From Prevotella herbatica (GTDB lineage Bacteria > Bacteroidota > Bacteroidia > Bacteroidales > Bacteroidaceae), in assembly GCF_017347605.1 (NCBI RefSeq), contig NZ_AP024484.1, forward strand, positions 3,238,501-3,302,500: a stretch of DNA of 64,000 bases, given 5' to 3'. A program made the position numbers and the translations under genes. Of the stretch, positions 54,874 through 63,619 are shown one piece after another. The notes under the pieces were generated by a model. The model was given only the letters and a program-made list of their open reading frames with translations, had not been told where the DNA came from and did not search any database. Positions within the stretch are counted from its first letter, which is position 1. Every line of letters starts with the position of its first letter.

Positions 54874-55571
54874 GTTTCCAGAAAAAAAGAAAAATTACCT
54901 ACACTACCTACATTTTTGACGTAAACCATTAATAGTCAATAGATTAAGGCATGTATAAGAGTGCCTTTTCCTACATCTTTCCTACATGATTCCTACATTT
55001 TAAGCACGTATTTGTACTTAAAACGGTGAATTTTGTCCCAATCTCAATACGAAAGTCGCTTTTGTTTCTTGGACCATTAGTTCATATTTTCATCAGTAAC
55101 GCAAATCTGAATGGTGCCCTTCATAAGAAATATAAATACAGGAATCTCATTTATCTTTGTAAATGTAATATAGCAACCAAACTAATTTGTAAATACATTT
55201 CACCATATCAATCTTTTCAGTAAAGGATTTCAGAATATGTAATGTCTATCAGTATCAGTTTTTAGAAATGTATAGTGTTTCAGTATGCATAACTACGAAT
55301 ATGTATACAGATTCTATCATAGTCAAAATGCATAAAGCGCAACGAGAATAAAATCGCCTTTTTCGGAGCGCCTTTGAGTGATTAGACCCTAATCACTCGG
55401 TAAAGCATGTAGGACAACAGAGTGATTAGGGCCTAATCACTCCCTAAAATGTATAAGAACGGACTCTTATACATTAGCTAACGTATTGTATAACAATGCG
55501 TTTCGACAAATCATGTAGGAAACAGCACTAAAAACTCAAAAAAAACTTTTTTTTGTTGATGTAGGTAGGGC
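54874..55571. repeat. Long non-coding repeat, copy B
   Basis: Second copy of the sequence at 18580-19275, same orientation. CCTACA at 54898 and 54907, then an 11-bp-phased set at 54970, 54981 and 54992; TGTAGG at 55408, 55514 and 55560. Inverted repeats at 55376-55398, 55420-55442 and 55448-55475 hold the same spacings (44 and 28) as in copy A. The last inverted repeat is perfect here (AATGTATAAG/CTTATACATT). It marks the edge between the core run and the accessory region; 55572-55764 shows nothing clear. Confidence 0.85.
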
Positions 55572-55987: not shown

Positions 55988-56640
55988 GTTGCTATTTTTA
56001 AAAGTTTTAAATTAAATCAATATTCACTGTAAAATATAATGGGACCAGCTCTAATCGTTATAGTAGAGATTAGAAACTTGTGTAATCTAATAAATTGTAT
56101 TAAATATGTCATAATTATATCTTTTTAAAATTAAAAAATGATACAATTCTGACGCTTTGGTTCTGATTGAATGGTGCAAATATAATACAATTTCAACCAA
56201 GTTGTTCTATTTTTGATTAACTCTTAACAAAAATTACCATAAGTTCTTTTAGATCAAAAAAATTATTTTTTAATAGGTATTTGCATAAATATGACATACT
56301 CGTTATTGAAGCATATAATATTTATTGTAAATATGACAAACTTGTTGGTAACAAAAGCTGTATCTGCAGGAACTTGTTTAAGAGACTGTTTATATACTGT
56401 ATACATACCAAGCGAAAGGATAATCTGCAAACAGACAAATAGTTAGAATATTTACTACTATTTTGGATATATATATACAGATAGTAAAGCTAGTTGTTTT
56501 ATTTACATACCAACCCTTTCTGCATAATGCCACTTATCTTGAGTTGAAACAAAACTTTTGACTAGTTTGTTAAAATAGTATTTACTATAATCCATAATAT
56601 TTAGTTAATTGATATTATCAATATAAAATATTATCACTAG
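55988..56640. other. Intergenic leader and A/T-rich stretch
   Basis: Between the small gene and the IS element. It holds a hairpin CTAATC/GATTAG at 56052-56075, the tentative -7 box at 56177-56184, and a possible 51-codon frame at 56291-56446 without supporting signals. Nothing else stands out. Confidence 0.4.
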
Positions 56641-57947
56641 TGTCTCTTAATTATTTGTAAAATATATGTTTATATCTCTCATTCACAATAAATTAGCTGT
56701 TTAAAAAACCGTCCGGGCTTTGAAATTTTTACCTTTGCGGTCGAATTCAAATCACCGCATATATGAATGTTGGACAATACATCTTCACACAGATTACCTC
56801 GTTTCTGCCACAGCGCCAATTCAGGCGCATCGTTCAGAAATACAACGATCGGACTCAAGGTTGGTCGCTTTCTCATTGGAATCACATGCTGGTTCTTTTG
56901 TTTGGGCAGCTTATAGGTTGCTGCAGTCTGAGAGAACTCACAGATATCACAATTGCACATGGTAAGAAATCGTTTTTCCTCGGGTTTGGTAAAAAAGCTG
57001 TCAATCGTCAGATACTGTCCAAGGCTAACTCCATCAGAGATCATCGAATATTCGAAGAATTTGCCTTTTATATGGTGTCCATCGCTCAGAACCTGCGTCT
57101 CACGAAAGACTTCGAACTTCATGGCAGATTTTATGCAGTTGACTCCACAACTATCGACCTCTGTATGTCTATATTTAGATGGGCTAAATTCCGAAGCACC
57201 AAGTCTGGCATTAAAATCCACACGCAGGTTGATATCGTTACCGAGATTCCAGTATTCTACAGAATCACCAATGCGGTCATCCACGATGTCAACGCAATGG
57301 ACTGGATCACTTATGAGCCTAACGCCTGCTATGTCTTTGACAGAGGTTACTTTGACCTGGCAAGACTCTATGCAATCCACAGCTCTATGGCTTTCTTCAT
57401 CATCCGTGAAAAACGTAGACCTGAATATGAAATTGTGGATGGGGAAGAACTTCTTGATGGAGAGGATAATGTTCTTTATGATCAGACCGTACGATTCACA
57501 GGTAAGAGGAATAAGTCCAACTATCCAGGTGCTATCAGACGTATTGTTTACTTTGCACCAGACCTGCAACGAACCTTTACTTACTACCAAATAACTTCTA
57601 TCTTGCTGCCAAGATTATTGCCAGGCTTTATCGCTACAGATGGCAAGTTGAGCTATTCTTCAAATGGGTCAAGCAGCATCTTCGTGTCAAAACCTTCTGG
57701 GGAGAGTCCGAGAATGCTGTTAGAATCCAAATCCATGTGGCAATCATCACGTATTGCCTTATTGGAATCATTGAGAGGAGGCTCAACCTCAATCGCCCAA
57801 TCGTTCAAATCATGCGAATACTCTGCAGTGCGTTGCTCCTCTAAGAGGACATTGCTGAACTGTTCTTCCACTCTGAAGAAGAGGAGGAGCCGTCCGATGG
57901 ACAGTTAGAAATTGACTTTCATTTTGATTAACATTAATTAAGAGACA
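56641..57947 (+). mobile_element. IS4-family insertion sequence, 1307 bp, transposase decayed
   Basis: Perfect 13-bp terminal inverted repeats (TGTCTCTTAATTA) at 56641-56653 and 57935-57947, flanked by direct CTAG (56637-56640 and 57948-57951) that fits a 4-bp target duplication. The transposase of the DUF4372/IS4 type lies inside. Intact ends with a broken gene imply recent inactivation or dependence on a partner copy. Confidence 0.85.
56763..57931 (+). pseudogene. IS4-family transposase, frameshifted and interrupted
   Basis: DUF4372 N-domain (VGQYIFTQITSFLP), then a DDE transposase: Asp in YAVDSTTIDL, Asp in CYVFDRGYFDLARL, and the Y-x2-R-x3-E-x6-K signature YRYRWQVELFFKWVK. The last lies in a different frame: a frameshift near 57583-57591 separates it from the first part. 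A TAA at 57842-57844 then interrupts the shifted frame before the last 29 codons (EDIAELFFHSEEEE). The catalytic Glu cannot be made without frameshifting, so the gene is most likely dead. Confidence 0.85.
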
Positions 57948-57973
57948 CTAGTGAAATGTTATTTTATTGAAAA

Positions 57974-59506
57974 TTATAAAGATAGTTTGTCATTAAGAGC
58001 ACTTTCTATTTCATTGAAATCCGTGTATGGAATAACTATAAGATTTATTTTATTCTTTGAGCAATAGTCAATTAAATCATTATCTCTTTTTTGTCTTCCT
58101 TCGAGTCTTTTATAGCCTCCCATAAAGTTTATTGGTTCATAATGTTGAATGCCATTATACTCTATAATTGTATATAATTTGGGTAACCAAAAATCTACTT
58201 TGAATAATCTTCTATGATAACCAGGGTGAAGAATGACAAACTCAGCTTGATATTGAATATTGTTGTCTAAAAGAAATTTCTCAATCTTTACCTCTCCCTT
58301 GGTCTGCTTACATTTATGACATCCGTTTCCTAACAGGTGACTATTAGGTGTTTGGAAAAATTCACCATGTTTGGGACAAATGATACATACTTTTATGCAA
58401 TTCCTTTGATATTCAACTTTTGAATAATCATATTTATTACCATGAATTTCTTTAGCTTTTTCAATAAATTGTTCTGTAGTTCCTATAAGGGCTTTTATAG
58501 TTTTATCAGCACCACATTTGGGACAACCATATTTATGAAGATGAGCATTAGGGGTTTGTAGAAATTCACCATGTATAGGACAAATAACACGAACTTTTTC
58601 TCTGGCATTTTTATAATCAATAAGACTATAATCGTAAAAGTCATCATGAACTTTTTTAGCCTTATTTATAAAGTCATCAGTATTACTTAAAAACCGTTGT
58701 CTAGTTTTATCATCTTTACATTTCATACACCCACGCCCAGATAAATGGTCTGCAGGTGATTGCCAAAAGAAACCATGTTTAGGGCACTCTATCATACCTT
58801 TTGTTTTGTAGTCCTTAAAAACAAAATGAACATAGCTATATTTGTTTTGGTGTACTACTTTTGCTCTTTCAAAGAACTCGAATACGTTTAATTTTCTATC
58901 TTCATGAGAATTAGCACACTTTACACAACCATACCCTTTTAGATGCTCAGAAGGAGATTGGTAGAATTTTCCATGTATAGGGCAGATTATTTTCACCTTT
59001 TTGTCCCATCCTCTATAATCTACCATAGAATAATTATACTTATTATTATGTACTTCTGATGCTTTTGAAACAAAATATTCAGTATTATATTGCAATCTCT
59101 GCCTTGTTTTCTCACCTTTACATTTAGGACAACCACTTCCTTGTATATGAACATAAGCTATCTGTTCAAAAACACCATGTTGAGGACAAATTATTTTTAT
59201 CTTCTTGTGCATATCAACATATTGTGTTTGTGAGTAGTCAAATTTACTATTATGAATCTGTAAAGCCTTACATATATATTGATCTTGCGTAACCCTCCTA
59301 TGAGTTTGTTTATTGCAGCATTTAGGACAACCACGACCTGCAAGATGACTACCAGGTGATTGTAAAAATTGAAAGCCACACTGCTTACAGGTAATTAACA
59401 CTTTGGTTCGGTTGTTTATATAAACAACTTGTGAGTAGTCGTATTGGTCACCATGAATTATTATAGCTTTCTCTATAAAAACAATTTTGTTACTTCTTTC
59501 TGACAT
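57974..59506 (-). CDS. Nuclease with six zinc-ribbon repeats and a C-terminal PD-(D/E)XK domain
   Basis: 510 residues. Six tandem units of about 66 residues (roughly 8-405) each read like F.EKAKEIHGNKYDYS, a Y strand, then a C..HG motif and a GC-x2-C knuckle, so each should bind one zinc (DUF723-like). The C-terminal domain (about 406-510) has VDFWLP, IIEYNGIQHY and QKRDNDLIDYC, a Vsr/MTES_1575-like endonuclease pattern: D, then E-x-N, Q and H. It is 6 bp after the DCL-domain gene, so the two are an operon. Many-ribbon nucleases of this kind occur in phages and defence islands; DNA recognition by the repeats is inference. It ends 26 bp from the IS. Confidence 0.72.
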   Translation of the reverse strand: MSERSNKIVFIEKAIIIHGDQYDYSQVVYINNRTKVLITCKQCGFQFLQSPGSHLAGRGCPKCCNKQTHRRVTQDQYICKALQIHNSKFDYSQTQYVDMHKKIKIICPQHGVFEQIAYVHIQGSGCPKCKGEKTRQRLQYNTEYFVSKASEVHNNKYNYSMVDYRGWDKKVKIICPIHGKFYQSPSEHLKGYGCVKCANSHEDRKLNVFEFFERAKVVHQNKYSYVHFVFKDYKTKGMIECPKHGFFWQSPADHLSGRGCMKCKDDKTRQRFLSNTDDFINKAKKVHDDFYDYSLIDYKNAREKVRVICPIHGEFLQTPNAHLHKYGCPKCGADKTIKALIGTTEQFIEKAKEIHGNKYDYSKVEYQRNCIKVCIICPKHGEFFQTPNSHLLGNGCHKCKQTKGEVKIEKFLLDNNIQYQAEFVILHPGYHRRLFKVDFWLPKLYTIIEYNGIQHYEPINFMGGYKRLEGRQKRDNDLIDYCSKNKINLIVIPYTDFNEIESALNDKLSL

Positions 59507-59512
59507 TGGTTA

Positions 59513-60262
59513 TTAGCATAGCTTATTATATAACTTAACACGTTCTTCTTCTGCTTTAGTCAAACACTGATTTTTATTATGTATCATATTATGTCCTTGT
59601 TTATGCAAGACAATCATATGAGTGTGTGCATTGTGATAGTCAATAAAATCTTCTATCATCTTATTATCTATAAAGGAGGTAATTGTTCCTCCACCAATAG
59701 CTGGATTTACATGCTTATAGACTTTTTGGTAACCTCCATTTAACTCAACCCATTCATCTATTATCTTATTCATGGGCTTATCATAATGATGTACTACTGA
59801 ATTATCCAATGTAAGTTCTAACGTTGACACAGGACATCGCCCATTACAATGTTTAATCTTGAACTTACTTTTAAGTTTATCTATAGCTGTACGGCATGCA
59901 GCCTTGACATCGGCTTCAACTCTTAATTTCTTGGATAGCTTACTATATGAAATAGCAGAGTCTTTTAATTCGATGTTTTCAAGAACTATATGAAAACATA
60001 AGGTATTTTGCCCTTCGGCTTTCTTTACTCGAAAGCCTATAAGGCGATCCTCACCAATTCGCTCTTGCCACTCAGTATGATACATTTCAAAGACTTTTAT
60101 TAAAAAAAAGCAAGGGTCACCAATAATCATTTCTGACGAGTCTTTCTCTTTTCTATTATTCCAAAAGTAGTCTTTAATAGCTTTGCATATTTGCTTTACT
60201 AATCCTAACTTTCTAAAATCTACGTTGTTACAGTTAATTTCTGTATAATTAATGATTTCCAT
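59513..60262 (-). CDS. DCL (DUF3223)-domain protein with degenerate HNH-like C-terminus
   Basis: 249 residues. Residues about 60-115 (HTEWQERIGEDRLIGFRV, LCFHIVLENIELKD, AISYSKLSKK) fit the DCL/DUF3223 pattern of H..EKIG, F.V, CF.I and DFSY. The part after it (ACRTAIDKLK, CPVSTLELTL, VVHHYDKPM, YHNAHTHMIVLHKQGHN) follows the layout of bacterial DCL proteins that end in an HNH-like fold, but key residues differ, so activity is uncertain. It is first in a two-gene operon with the zinc-ribbon nuclease. Confidence 0.55.
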   Translation of the reverse strand: MEIINYTEINCNNVDFRKLGLVKQICKAIKDYFWNNRKEKDSSEMIIGDPCFFLIKVFEMYHTEWQERIGEDRLIGFRVKKAEGQNTLCFHIVLENIELKDSAISYSKLSKKLRVEADVKAACRTAIDKLKSKFKIKHCNGRCPVSTLELTLDNSVVHHYDKPMNKIIDEWVELNGGYQKVYKHVNPAIGGGTITSFIDNKMIEDFIDYHNAHTHMIVLHKQGHNMIHNKNQCLTKAEEERVKLYNKLC

Positions 60263-60737
60263 ATTAGTAAATAAGATTACGATTTTTAAAACTTACATAT
60301 CCATAATATCTATGCTACTATTTTGTTAAAGATTTAAACATTGATATCATTCGTATTATTACACTTGTGAACAAATCAAGATTTCAATCTTATAATTCCA
60401 AAAGCGATATATGCTAATTAAACCATAAAGATAAAGAATTACATCTAAGATAACAAGTCTTTTGGTGCAAACTTAACACATTTTTGCAGATAATACATAT
60501 TTTATCTCACATAAGAGATAAATCGTAACTTAAAACAACAACTTATCCCCATAGATTATAATATCAGTATAATTGTCTATTTTTGCATCCGAAATAGCAT
60601 AAAAAAATTACGGACATATTTATCGGCAACAATATAGGCTTTGCGCAAAGAATTATATTTTTCTGTGATTTCCTTTTAAAAAGTTCAAATGAAATAATAT
60701 ATTTGGAATGATGAAATTGGAGAGATATACACTAATG
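60263..60737. other. Intergenic region, no gene seen
   Basis: A/T-rich. A minus-strand TAAGTTTG (60475-60468) could be the -7 box for the nuclease operon; a plus-strand TATTTTTG is at 60578-60585. CTTTGCGCAAAG near 60643 is a 12-base palindrome. No coding signal. Confidence 0.4.
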
Positions 60738-62603
60738 CTATAAGTTATCTTCACCTATTATTTTCTCACCTGTTATCATGCTTAAATCAAAACTTCTTGG
60801 ATAATTTGGTATTTTATAATGCTTTTTGTACTCCATGTCCAACTCATTCTTAAATCCAAGTCCAATGCGGTAATAGGCATCAAAGATAGTTTCCATATTA
60901 GGAGTTGTATTGATCATAATGTCTTTATCTGCATATTTTTTGAATTGCTCACGATCGTTTAGATACCAGCCGCAAATTTCTAGTTCATCGAAGCACATCA
61001 CGTGCCCTTGCAGCCTTTCTCTATAATCAATAAACTCCATGAAACGTGCAGGAGCTATCCCTTTCAGCCTTTTTTTCATCAATAAGAACAAAACTTCTAA
61101 GTCATCAATACAAACCGACCAAGGATATAAAGCTTCATTATCCTTTTTCAATAACATACTAAGATTAGTCTGAATTGCACCATACTTAAAGTCTGTAACA
61201 ACGATAGACCACACATTACTAATATTTCTCTTTTTTAGATGATATAAGATATCTTTTTTGTTATCTGCATCAAGGATATTAATATCCTGATCGGCTAAAA
61301 GAATCTTCTCAACACGTCTGCATTGTTCATACCCTAATTGGATGGCATTATGATAATCTCTCTTTATCCGGTCATATGCTTTTATTGGGTCACGGAATGG
61401 TTCACGGAATTTGCAATCCTTGATCTCTACAATAATGCAAGCGTTTCCAAATACAACTAGTAAGTCGTTCTCCGCAACACCGTCAATACTATAGTTGGTA
61501 AAAATCTTTGTCTTTTTCGGGAAGAACCGCTGAAACACCTCTTTAACCTTCTCCTCGAATGCTGTGTCTTTGTTCTGTTTGTATTTCCCCGTGGGTTCTT
61601 CTTTTATTAACACTTCATCCAACCTAAAGTATAACCCCTCAAACAGGAATTTATTGATTGGGCAAATGCATTTCTTACCTATCATAATAAGTGGATGTGA
61701 TTCAGAGTAGTGCTTGTCAGCATAATAGATTGTTTTGCCTTTTAATGAATCCTTATCATACAAAAAGAAATCCAGGATATGTTGCAAACAATCAGGGCTT
61801 ATTTCTACATCAATCAACTCCTTTATCTGATGCACATTAACTTCCCCTGGATTTGTACTTATGGTCTTCATCATGCCGCTTAATTCGGGTTGATTCCACC
61901 AATCCTGTGGATTATCAATTCCTCTTTCTTTAAATTTCAGAATCAAATTATACCATTCCTCATGATGAGTATCATAGAAAGAGTATGTATCCATAAAAGT
62001 TCGAAAAATATCGTTAAATTTGTTGTTATTCAAAGCCCTTATATGCAGAATAAACTTTATTGCATCATCTATTTTAAAGCTATAGTGCGATTGAATATAC
62101 TCATCATATGGCTTGATATATCTCATAATTCTATCTAGCATCTGTTCCTCATAGCTTAATACTGCATTACTAAAATATCCCAAAAATGTTGCTAGGGACA
62201 CTTTTATTTTTTCATCGCGCTCGTCATAGAATAAATCGCCGTGATTTGGGAACCCAATATTAACAAAATAAGTCATTTCTATTTCATTGAGCAATATAGC
62301 TATTCTATCCCAACGTTCTTCGTTCATTACAACATCTCCCTCCTGTTTATCAATTGAGTAGAATACATCTATCAAATAAAGAGTTTGCCTCATAGGGGAT
62401 AGCAGATGTTTATACAGCGGTGACGTAGCTTTGAAATCAAGTTCAATAATCAACTGCATGGCGTGAACCAAAAAGGACTCTTCCTGTACAAGTATGAGTT
62501 CTTTTTTGAGGTCATCAACGATCTCCTCGATTGTTCGATGATGTTCTTTTACAGCTATCATTTTTTTATAAGCGTCTTGATAATTATACTTAACATCTTC
62601 CAT
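60738..62603 (-). CDS. 621-residue protein with a PD-(D/E)XK nuclease-like domain
   Basis: Long helical N-terminal part (about 1-345, no membrane span) followed by a restriction-enzyme-like core: E350 in AFEEKV, D380 in AENDLLVVF and E393-x-K395 in IIVEIKDCK, spaced as in Mrr/NERD-type nucleases. The rest (400-621) is helical with aromatic-rich segments. Not recognised as a named family. It stands alone between two transposase remnants; a TAACTTTG element (minus strand, 62684-62677) could be its promoter. Possibly an anti-phage nuclease. Confidence 0.6.
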   Translation of the reverse strand: MEDVKYNYQDAYKKMIAVKEHHRTIEEIVDDLKKELILVQEESFLVHAMQLIIELDFKATSPLYKHLLSPMRQTLYLIDVFYSIDKQEGDVVMNEERWDRIAILLNEIEMTYFVNIGFPNHGDLFYDERDEKIKVSLATFLGYFSNAVLSYEEQMLDRIMRYIKPYDEYIQSHYSFKIDDAIKFILHIRALNNNKFNDIFRTFMDTYSFYDTHHEEWYNLILKFKERGIDNPQDWWNQPELSGMMKTISTNPGEVNVHQIKELIDVEISPDCLQHILDFFLYDKDSLKGKTIYYADKHYSESHPLIMIGKKCICPINKFLFEGLYFRLDEVLIKEEPTGKYKQNKDTAFEEKVKEVFQRFFPKKTKIFTNYSIDGVAENDLLVVFGNACIIVEIKDCKFREPFRDPIKAYDRIKRDYHNAIQLGYEQCRRVEKILLADQDINILDADNKKDILYHLKKRNISNVWSIVVTDFKYGAIQTNLSMLLKKDNEALYPWSVCIDDLEVLFLLMKKRLKGIAPARFMEFIDYRERLQGHVMCFDELEICGWYLNDREQFKKYADKDIMINTTPNMETIFDAYYRIGLGFKNELDMEYKKHYKIPNYPRSFDLSMITGEKIIGEDNL

Positions 62604-63260: not shown

Positions 63261-63619
63261 ATGGGCAAAAGTACACATTCTATCGGACTGCCACTCTATA
63301 GCCAGGTAATAAATTTACATGATAAGTCAAAATTCTTGAGATTGGTCGTTAATATAGCGGTGAACGAAATATTTAAGCGTTTCGATGGGTTGACTCATCT
63401 GGTTGTAATGCTCTATGCCGTAATTATGCGCTTTAATTCTCTTCGTGAAATAAACACCTCGTTACAAGCGAAAGGAAGTAAATTTCATCATTTAAGTACA
63501 ATGATGAAATCCCGAAATACATTGTCTGATGCTAATAGGAGAAGTCTGAAGCTATGTCTGAGGCAATATACCGTGATCTATATGCCAATCTAGAACAACC
63601 GAAGCCAAAAGAAACTTAG
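63261..63619 (+). pseudogene. IS4-family (DUF4372) transposase N-terminal remnant
   Basis: Begins MGKSTHSIGLPLYSQVINL and continues FDGLTHLVVMLYAVIMRFNSLREI, typical of the DUF4372 N-domain of another IS than the one at 56641. After NTLSDANRR the frame shifts near 63540 (the expected SEAMSEAIYRDLYANL reads in the next frame) and stops at 63617-63619. The catalytic domain is gone. Confidence 0.8.

Follow-up and report, generated by a model that had tools for sequence, protein, structure and literature searches.

A six-finger, Vsr-like nuclease of probable phage origin beside defence genes in Prevotella herbatica

We analyzed a 64,000-nucleotide stretch of the Prevotella herbatica chromosome (NZ_AP024484.1, positions 3,238,501 to 3,302,500; hereafter the window, whose numbering is used below) and identified a gene for a 510-residue protein in which six zinc-finger-type units precede an EDxHD/Vsr-like nuclease domain. 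We consider it likely that the protein is a free-standing homing-endonuclease-like enzyme of the EDxHD/Vsr type that came from a phage and was probably captured into the bacterial chromosome. This reading was adopted because the architecture, the fold, the relatives and the sporadic distribution of the protein fit a group described in 2025, in which 3-5 CapR/DUF4379/DUF723 domains joined to an EDxHD/Vsr domain define a large homing-endonuclease set whose relatives number in the thousands (PMC12350094). The published examples lie in phage group II introns and have finger-like domains of ~60 residues and a C-terminal EDxHD/Vsr-like domain of ~100 residues. Our protein resembles them in its repeated finger domains followed by an EDxHD/Vsr-like domain and in its Pfam families, while it differs in carrying six units instead of 3-5, in residing on a bacterial chromosome and in having no detectable intron. 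We regard it as a new six-unit, chromosomal member that exemplifies a published family well, and not as a new kind of protein.

The gene and its finger array

The open reading frame started with ATG and contained 510 codons with no internal stop, indicating that the gene is intact. The gene and its parts, all on the minus strand, were as follows.

57974..59506, minus strand: nuclease gene, 510 aa, six DUF723/DUF4379-type zinc-finger units and an EDxHD/Vsr-like nuclease domain
59285..59482, minus strand: unit 1, residues 9-74, predicted ligands C40-x2-C43 and C60-x2-C63
59081..59284, minus strand: unit 2, residues 75-142, predicted ligands C107-x2-H110 and C126-x2-C129
58883..59080, minus strand: unit 3, residues 143-208, predicted ligands C175-x2-H178 and C194-x2-C197
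58679..58879, minus strand: unit 4, residues 210-276, predicted ligands C241-x2-H244 and C260-x2-C263
58478..58678, minus strand: unit 5, residues 277-343, predicted ligands C309-x2-H312 and C328-x2-C331
58274..58474, minus strand: unit 6, residues 345-411, predicted ligands C377-x2-H380 and C396-x2-C399
57977..58309, minus strand: EDxHD/Vsr-like nuclease core, residues 400-510, with E405, D438, E449, Q454, H455 and D475 conserved

The units were 66-68 residues long, together spanned residues 9-411 and had the predicted ligand pairs C-x2-[C/H] and C-x2-C in 6 out of 6 cases. Pairwise identity between them was 38-48%, with a mean of 42%. When each unit was scored by a profile built from the other five, it obtained 77-93 bits, whereas the best of 1000 shuffles per unit reached 15 bits, and the units therefore repeat beyond chance. 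An earlier note on this DNA had described the gene as six repeat units followed by a nuclease, and the intact reading frame, the homology of the units and the conserved C-terminal domain bore this out.

The same note had called the units zinc ribbons, a description that did not hold. Pfam searches with the protein found DUF723 (6e-15) and DUF4379, annotated as "probable treble clef zinc finger" (2e-13), both above the cut-offs. In the AlphaFold2 model each unit was predicted to place its first ligand pair on a beta hairpin and its second at the start of a helix. The fingers, as modelled, are thus of the treble-clef type, in agreement with both the Pfam family and the predicted hairpin-then-helix layout. 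The finger array was basic, with a pI of 9.3. That such an array may read a long DNA site in a modular way, as the note had suggested, is probable given the published view that finger domains of the CapR/DUF4379/DUF723 type bind DNA (PMC12350094, PMC10448857).

The C-terminal core

The six residues of the core listed above were invariant or almost so in alignments of 10-32 phage and bacterial homologues. To the earlier note this was a PD-(D/E)XK-like core, and structure prediction had been proposed there as a check. The AlphaFold2 model, built from a 32-sequence alignment, had a mean pLDDT of 88.5 and a pTM of 0.39, the latter compatible with domains that are separate and flexibly linked; for the core by itself, prediction from a single sequence reached a pLDDT of only 53.7 and was set aside. 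The prediction did yield a nuclease fold, and it was Vsr-like. Residues 402-510 aligned with the catalytic domain of I-Bth0305I (3r3p) at Z 11.7 (2.5 A over 91 residues) and with Vsr at Z 11.3 (1cw0; 2.5 A over 103 residues) and Z 10.7 (1VSR); Vsr also appeared in the Foldseek list for the model with a probability of 1.00. The assignment to PD-(D/E)XK was therefore correct at the level of the fold. However, the strand at the (D/E)xK site reads IIEYNG, in which N replaces K while D438 and E449 are kept. The absence of this lysine rules out a canonical PD-(D/E)XK nuclease; the structural matches place the core in the EDxHD/Vsr branch.

Identity to the EDxHD homing endonuclease I-Bth0305I was only 19% over the aligned part, although the nuclease-domain folds are alike. 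The fold is also shared with the very-short-patch-repair endonuclease of E. coli, Vsr (1CW0, 1VSR). Vsr itself is a mismatch nicking enzyme and has no finger array. Searching solved structures with sequence profiles yielded chance matches only, except for a weak match to a DUF4379 mitoribosomal protein. Multi-finger homing endonucleases also include T5orf172 (GIY-YIG) enzymes with CapR/DUF723 arrays (PMC10448857), which resemble our protein in the repeated zinc-finger array and differ from it in the nuclease domain.

The nuclease matched phrog_559 at 5e-100 and phrog_9084, "homing endonuclease", at 2e-19. Phage annotations name the phrog_559 family "HNH endonuclease". An HNH enzyme was rejected in our case, as no HNH Pfam match was obtained up to E 1 and the predicted fold is Vsr-like. 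Since the domain of the phrog_559 family is Vsr/EDxHD-like, many phage records appear to be mislabelled.

Taken as a homing-type enzyme, the protein would lay its six treble-clef zinc-finger modules along a long site in double-stranded DNA, and the C-terminal Vsr-like domain would make a metal-dependent cut at or beside the bound site. Should the nuclease still be active in homing, cutting of a gene-free allele would be followed by repair from the gene-bearing copy, and the gene would spread.

Relatives, unit counts and mobility

A tblastn search found related sequence in 1008 phage records, and the core alone retrieved 333 phage and 25 plasmid records. Pattern-based scans with an alignment-based query, taking the best 80 matches per collection, gave 160 homologue loci, of which 158 had a scorable core. 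In the tree of cores, which rests on 106 columns and leaves many forks open, the nuclease was placed in a supported group (98/89) that comprised 12 rows, of which 9 were viral. The closest core by identity (48%) was encoded on a viral contig with phage-like neighbour genes and followed four units. Within the genus, DUF723 was sporadic, occurring in 3 out of 100 genomes.

Two phage homologues were intron-resident. In Staphylococcus phage PSU4 the large terminase gene is in fragments with the homologue between them, and a further open reading frame there carries the annotation "group I intron protein". The homologue of Staphylococcus phage S6 (1563-3416 of its locus, L010) is bracketed by group II intron matches (D1-D4-5 and the domain V region). 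The S6 locus matches the type of group II intron case that has been published (PMC12350094).

The number of units per homologue ranged from 0 to 7 in the sample of best 80 matches per collection, with counts that depend on the profile threshold; six units were found in 11 of the 158 homologues and seven in 7. Six is thus a high number and yet not rare, six or seven units being present in 18 members of this sample of 158, and the statement that few families have so many units was not upheld. A 621-residue homologue on a Brevibacillus plasmid bore an extended array whose fingers are of a diverged type. Finger units like those of our nuclease were also seen ahead of other C-terminal parts, for example in Vibrio phage GR11A and an open reading frame of a congener (G034). 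For 454 of the 524 sampled units the best match was a unit of another protein, so that similarity is usually greater between proteins than inside one, indicating that the units are old. The six units of our nuclease had their best outside matches at differing places within other arrays, and the composition of the array therefore looks fluid and reshuffled over time. The proposed great age of the array accordingly applies to its units, while the array as a combination looks fluid.

Chromosomal neighbourhood and alternative roles

The following features surround the gene.

59513..60262, minus strand: HamC-like gene (DUF3223 type), 249 aa, 6 bp upstream of the nuclease gene, HamC match 2e-10
60738..62603, minus strand: gene for a NERD-domain protein, 621 aa
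56634-57955: IS element encoding DUF4372 and DDE transposase domains, with its end ~20 bp beyond the stop codon of the nuclease gene
63261-63593: fragment of a second DUF4372 transposase, on the far side of the NERD gene

With DUF4372 elements on both sides, the three-gene block of nuclease, HamC-like and NERD genes is flanked by IS sequences. The IS element at 56634-57955 has inverted ends (CACTAGTGTCTCTTAATTA), and its transposase seems frameshifted near the C-terminus. A near-perfect 26-bp hairpin (92%, 15-nt loop) was also seen at 55376-55442, inside a 2.2-kb stretch without clear genes.

The nuclease gene is at the end of an ordinary defence island. On the minus strand the order is a HamB-like helicase (1.5e-55), FRG (PDC-S15), DUF4209 (PDC-S39), Mrr-like, NERD and HamC-like genes, and then the nuclease. 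The island covers 57974-62603 of the window and, by the same numbering, reaches as far as about 70561 (L008:2196-9061), the Mrr-like, DUF4209, FRG and HamB-like helicase genes being outside the window edge. A Mrr_cat search of the organism's own genome gave no match. A 233-aa protein beside hamB sits where hamA is expected; no model matched it, and it may be a diverged HamA. HamC is a marker of Hachiman type II (PMC8565338), and the HamC-like neighbour and the HamB-like helicase share the island, although the HamC-like gene is not next to hamB. The Hachiman system as described does not contain the nuclease (PMC8565338), and since the nuclease matched no HamA, HamB or HamC family, we ruled it out as a Hachiman member.

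This setting bears on another explanation, which we regard as unlikely, namely that the protein is a domesticated anti-phage nuclease derived from a homing endonuclease, whose fingers would recognise some site or feature in invading DNA and whose Vsr-like core would cut it, possibly with the HamC-like protein as a partner. By its position, the intact gene is in a co-directional run with defence genes, 6 bp behind the HamC-like gene, and a purely selfish gene need not sit there; the fold relatives of the core also include the restriction enzymes PspGI, AbaSI and PvuRts1I. However, the nuclease matched no PADLOC family below E 0.1, the only match being at chance level (E 0.21), and unrelated mobile genes also gather in defence islands. 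Nothing in the analysis spoke directly for a role as a toxin or in phage resistance. Moreover, neither a HamC-like nor a NERD gene was found paired with any of the sampled homologues, the HamC-like protein occurred in hardly any of 395 genomes from the phylum, and our survey of neighbour genes detected no defence family recurring widely beside the bacterial homologues. The more specific proposal that the nuclease with its six-finger array was recruited alongside the HamC-like protein into a defence operon, leading to sequence-targeted destruction of invading DNA, seems to us improbable.

The neighbours of the bacterial homologues were scattered among phage genes, integrases and mobilisation genes. 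In seven Chryseobacterium genomes (L127, L128, L133, L144, L145, L153 and L160) the homologue was directly behind mobilisation and T4SS coupling-protein genes and looks like recurrent cargo of an apparent mobilisable element. These loci, together with Odn of phage ICP1, in which related homing-endonuclease domains are used against satellites (PMC10448857), are consistent with a nuclease that serves a satellite, integrative or mobilisable element, for instance by cutting competitor DNA, the copy in the window being a remnant. We consider this very improbable for the P. herbatica protein, as none of the genes near it was recognised as an integrase, a relaxase or a phage structural gene, with nine neighbour open reading frames run against family libraries; the DUF4372/DDE IS element and the IS fragment were the only mobile sequences recognised near the nuclease. 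A non-cutting DNA- or RNA-binding protein with an inactive core is hardly credible, for although mitoribosomal proteins with Vsr-like folds occur in the fold list of the core, the nuclease retains every conserved acidic residue as well as the QH pair.

We therefore retain the captured homing-endonuclease-like enzyme as the preferred reading of the protein. Around the gene itself, searches for an intron gave only sub-threshold chance Rfam matches. When congeners were compared for an empty site, the two flanking genes were ~71 kb apart in the closest genome and none of the island genes turned up in the sampled stretches. With no intron detected around the gene and no gene-free allele found, any homing at this chromosomal site is conjectural.

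The nuclease alone changes no general view. As a compact and intact protein with six modules, it represents a large nuclease group most of which lacks annotation. The occurrence of 0-7 units on one core could be used to learn whether the length of DNA read per finger is constant, and the site beside defence genes makes the protein a fair test case for the recruitment of such enzymes into immunity.
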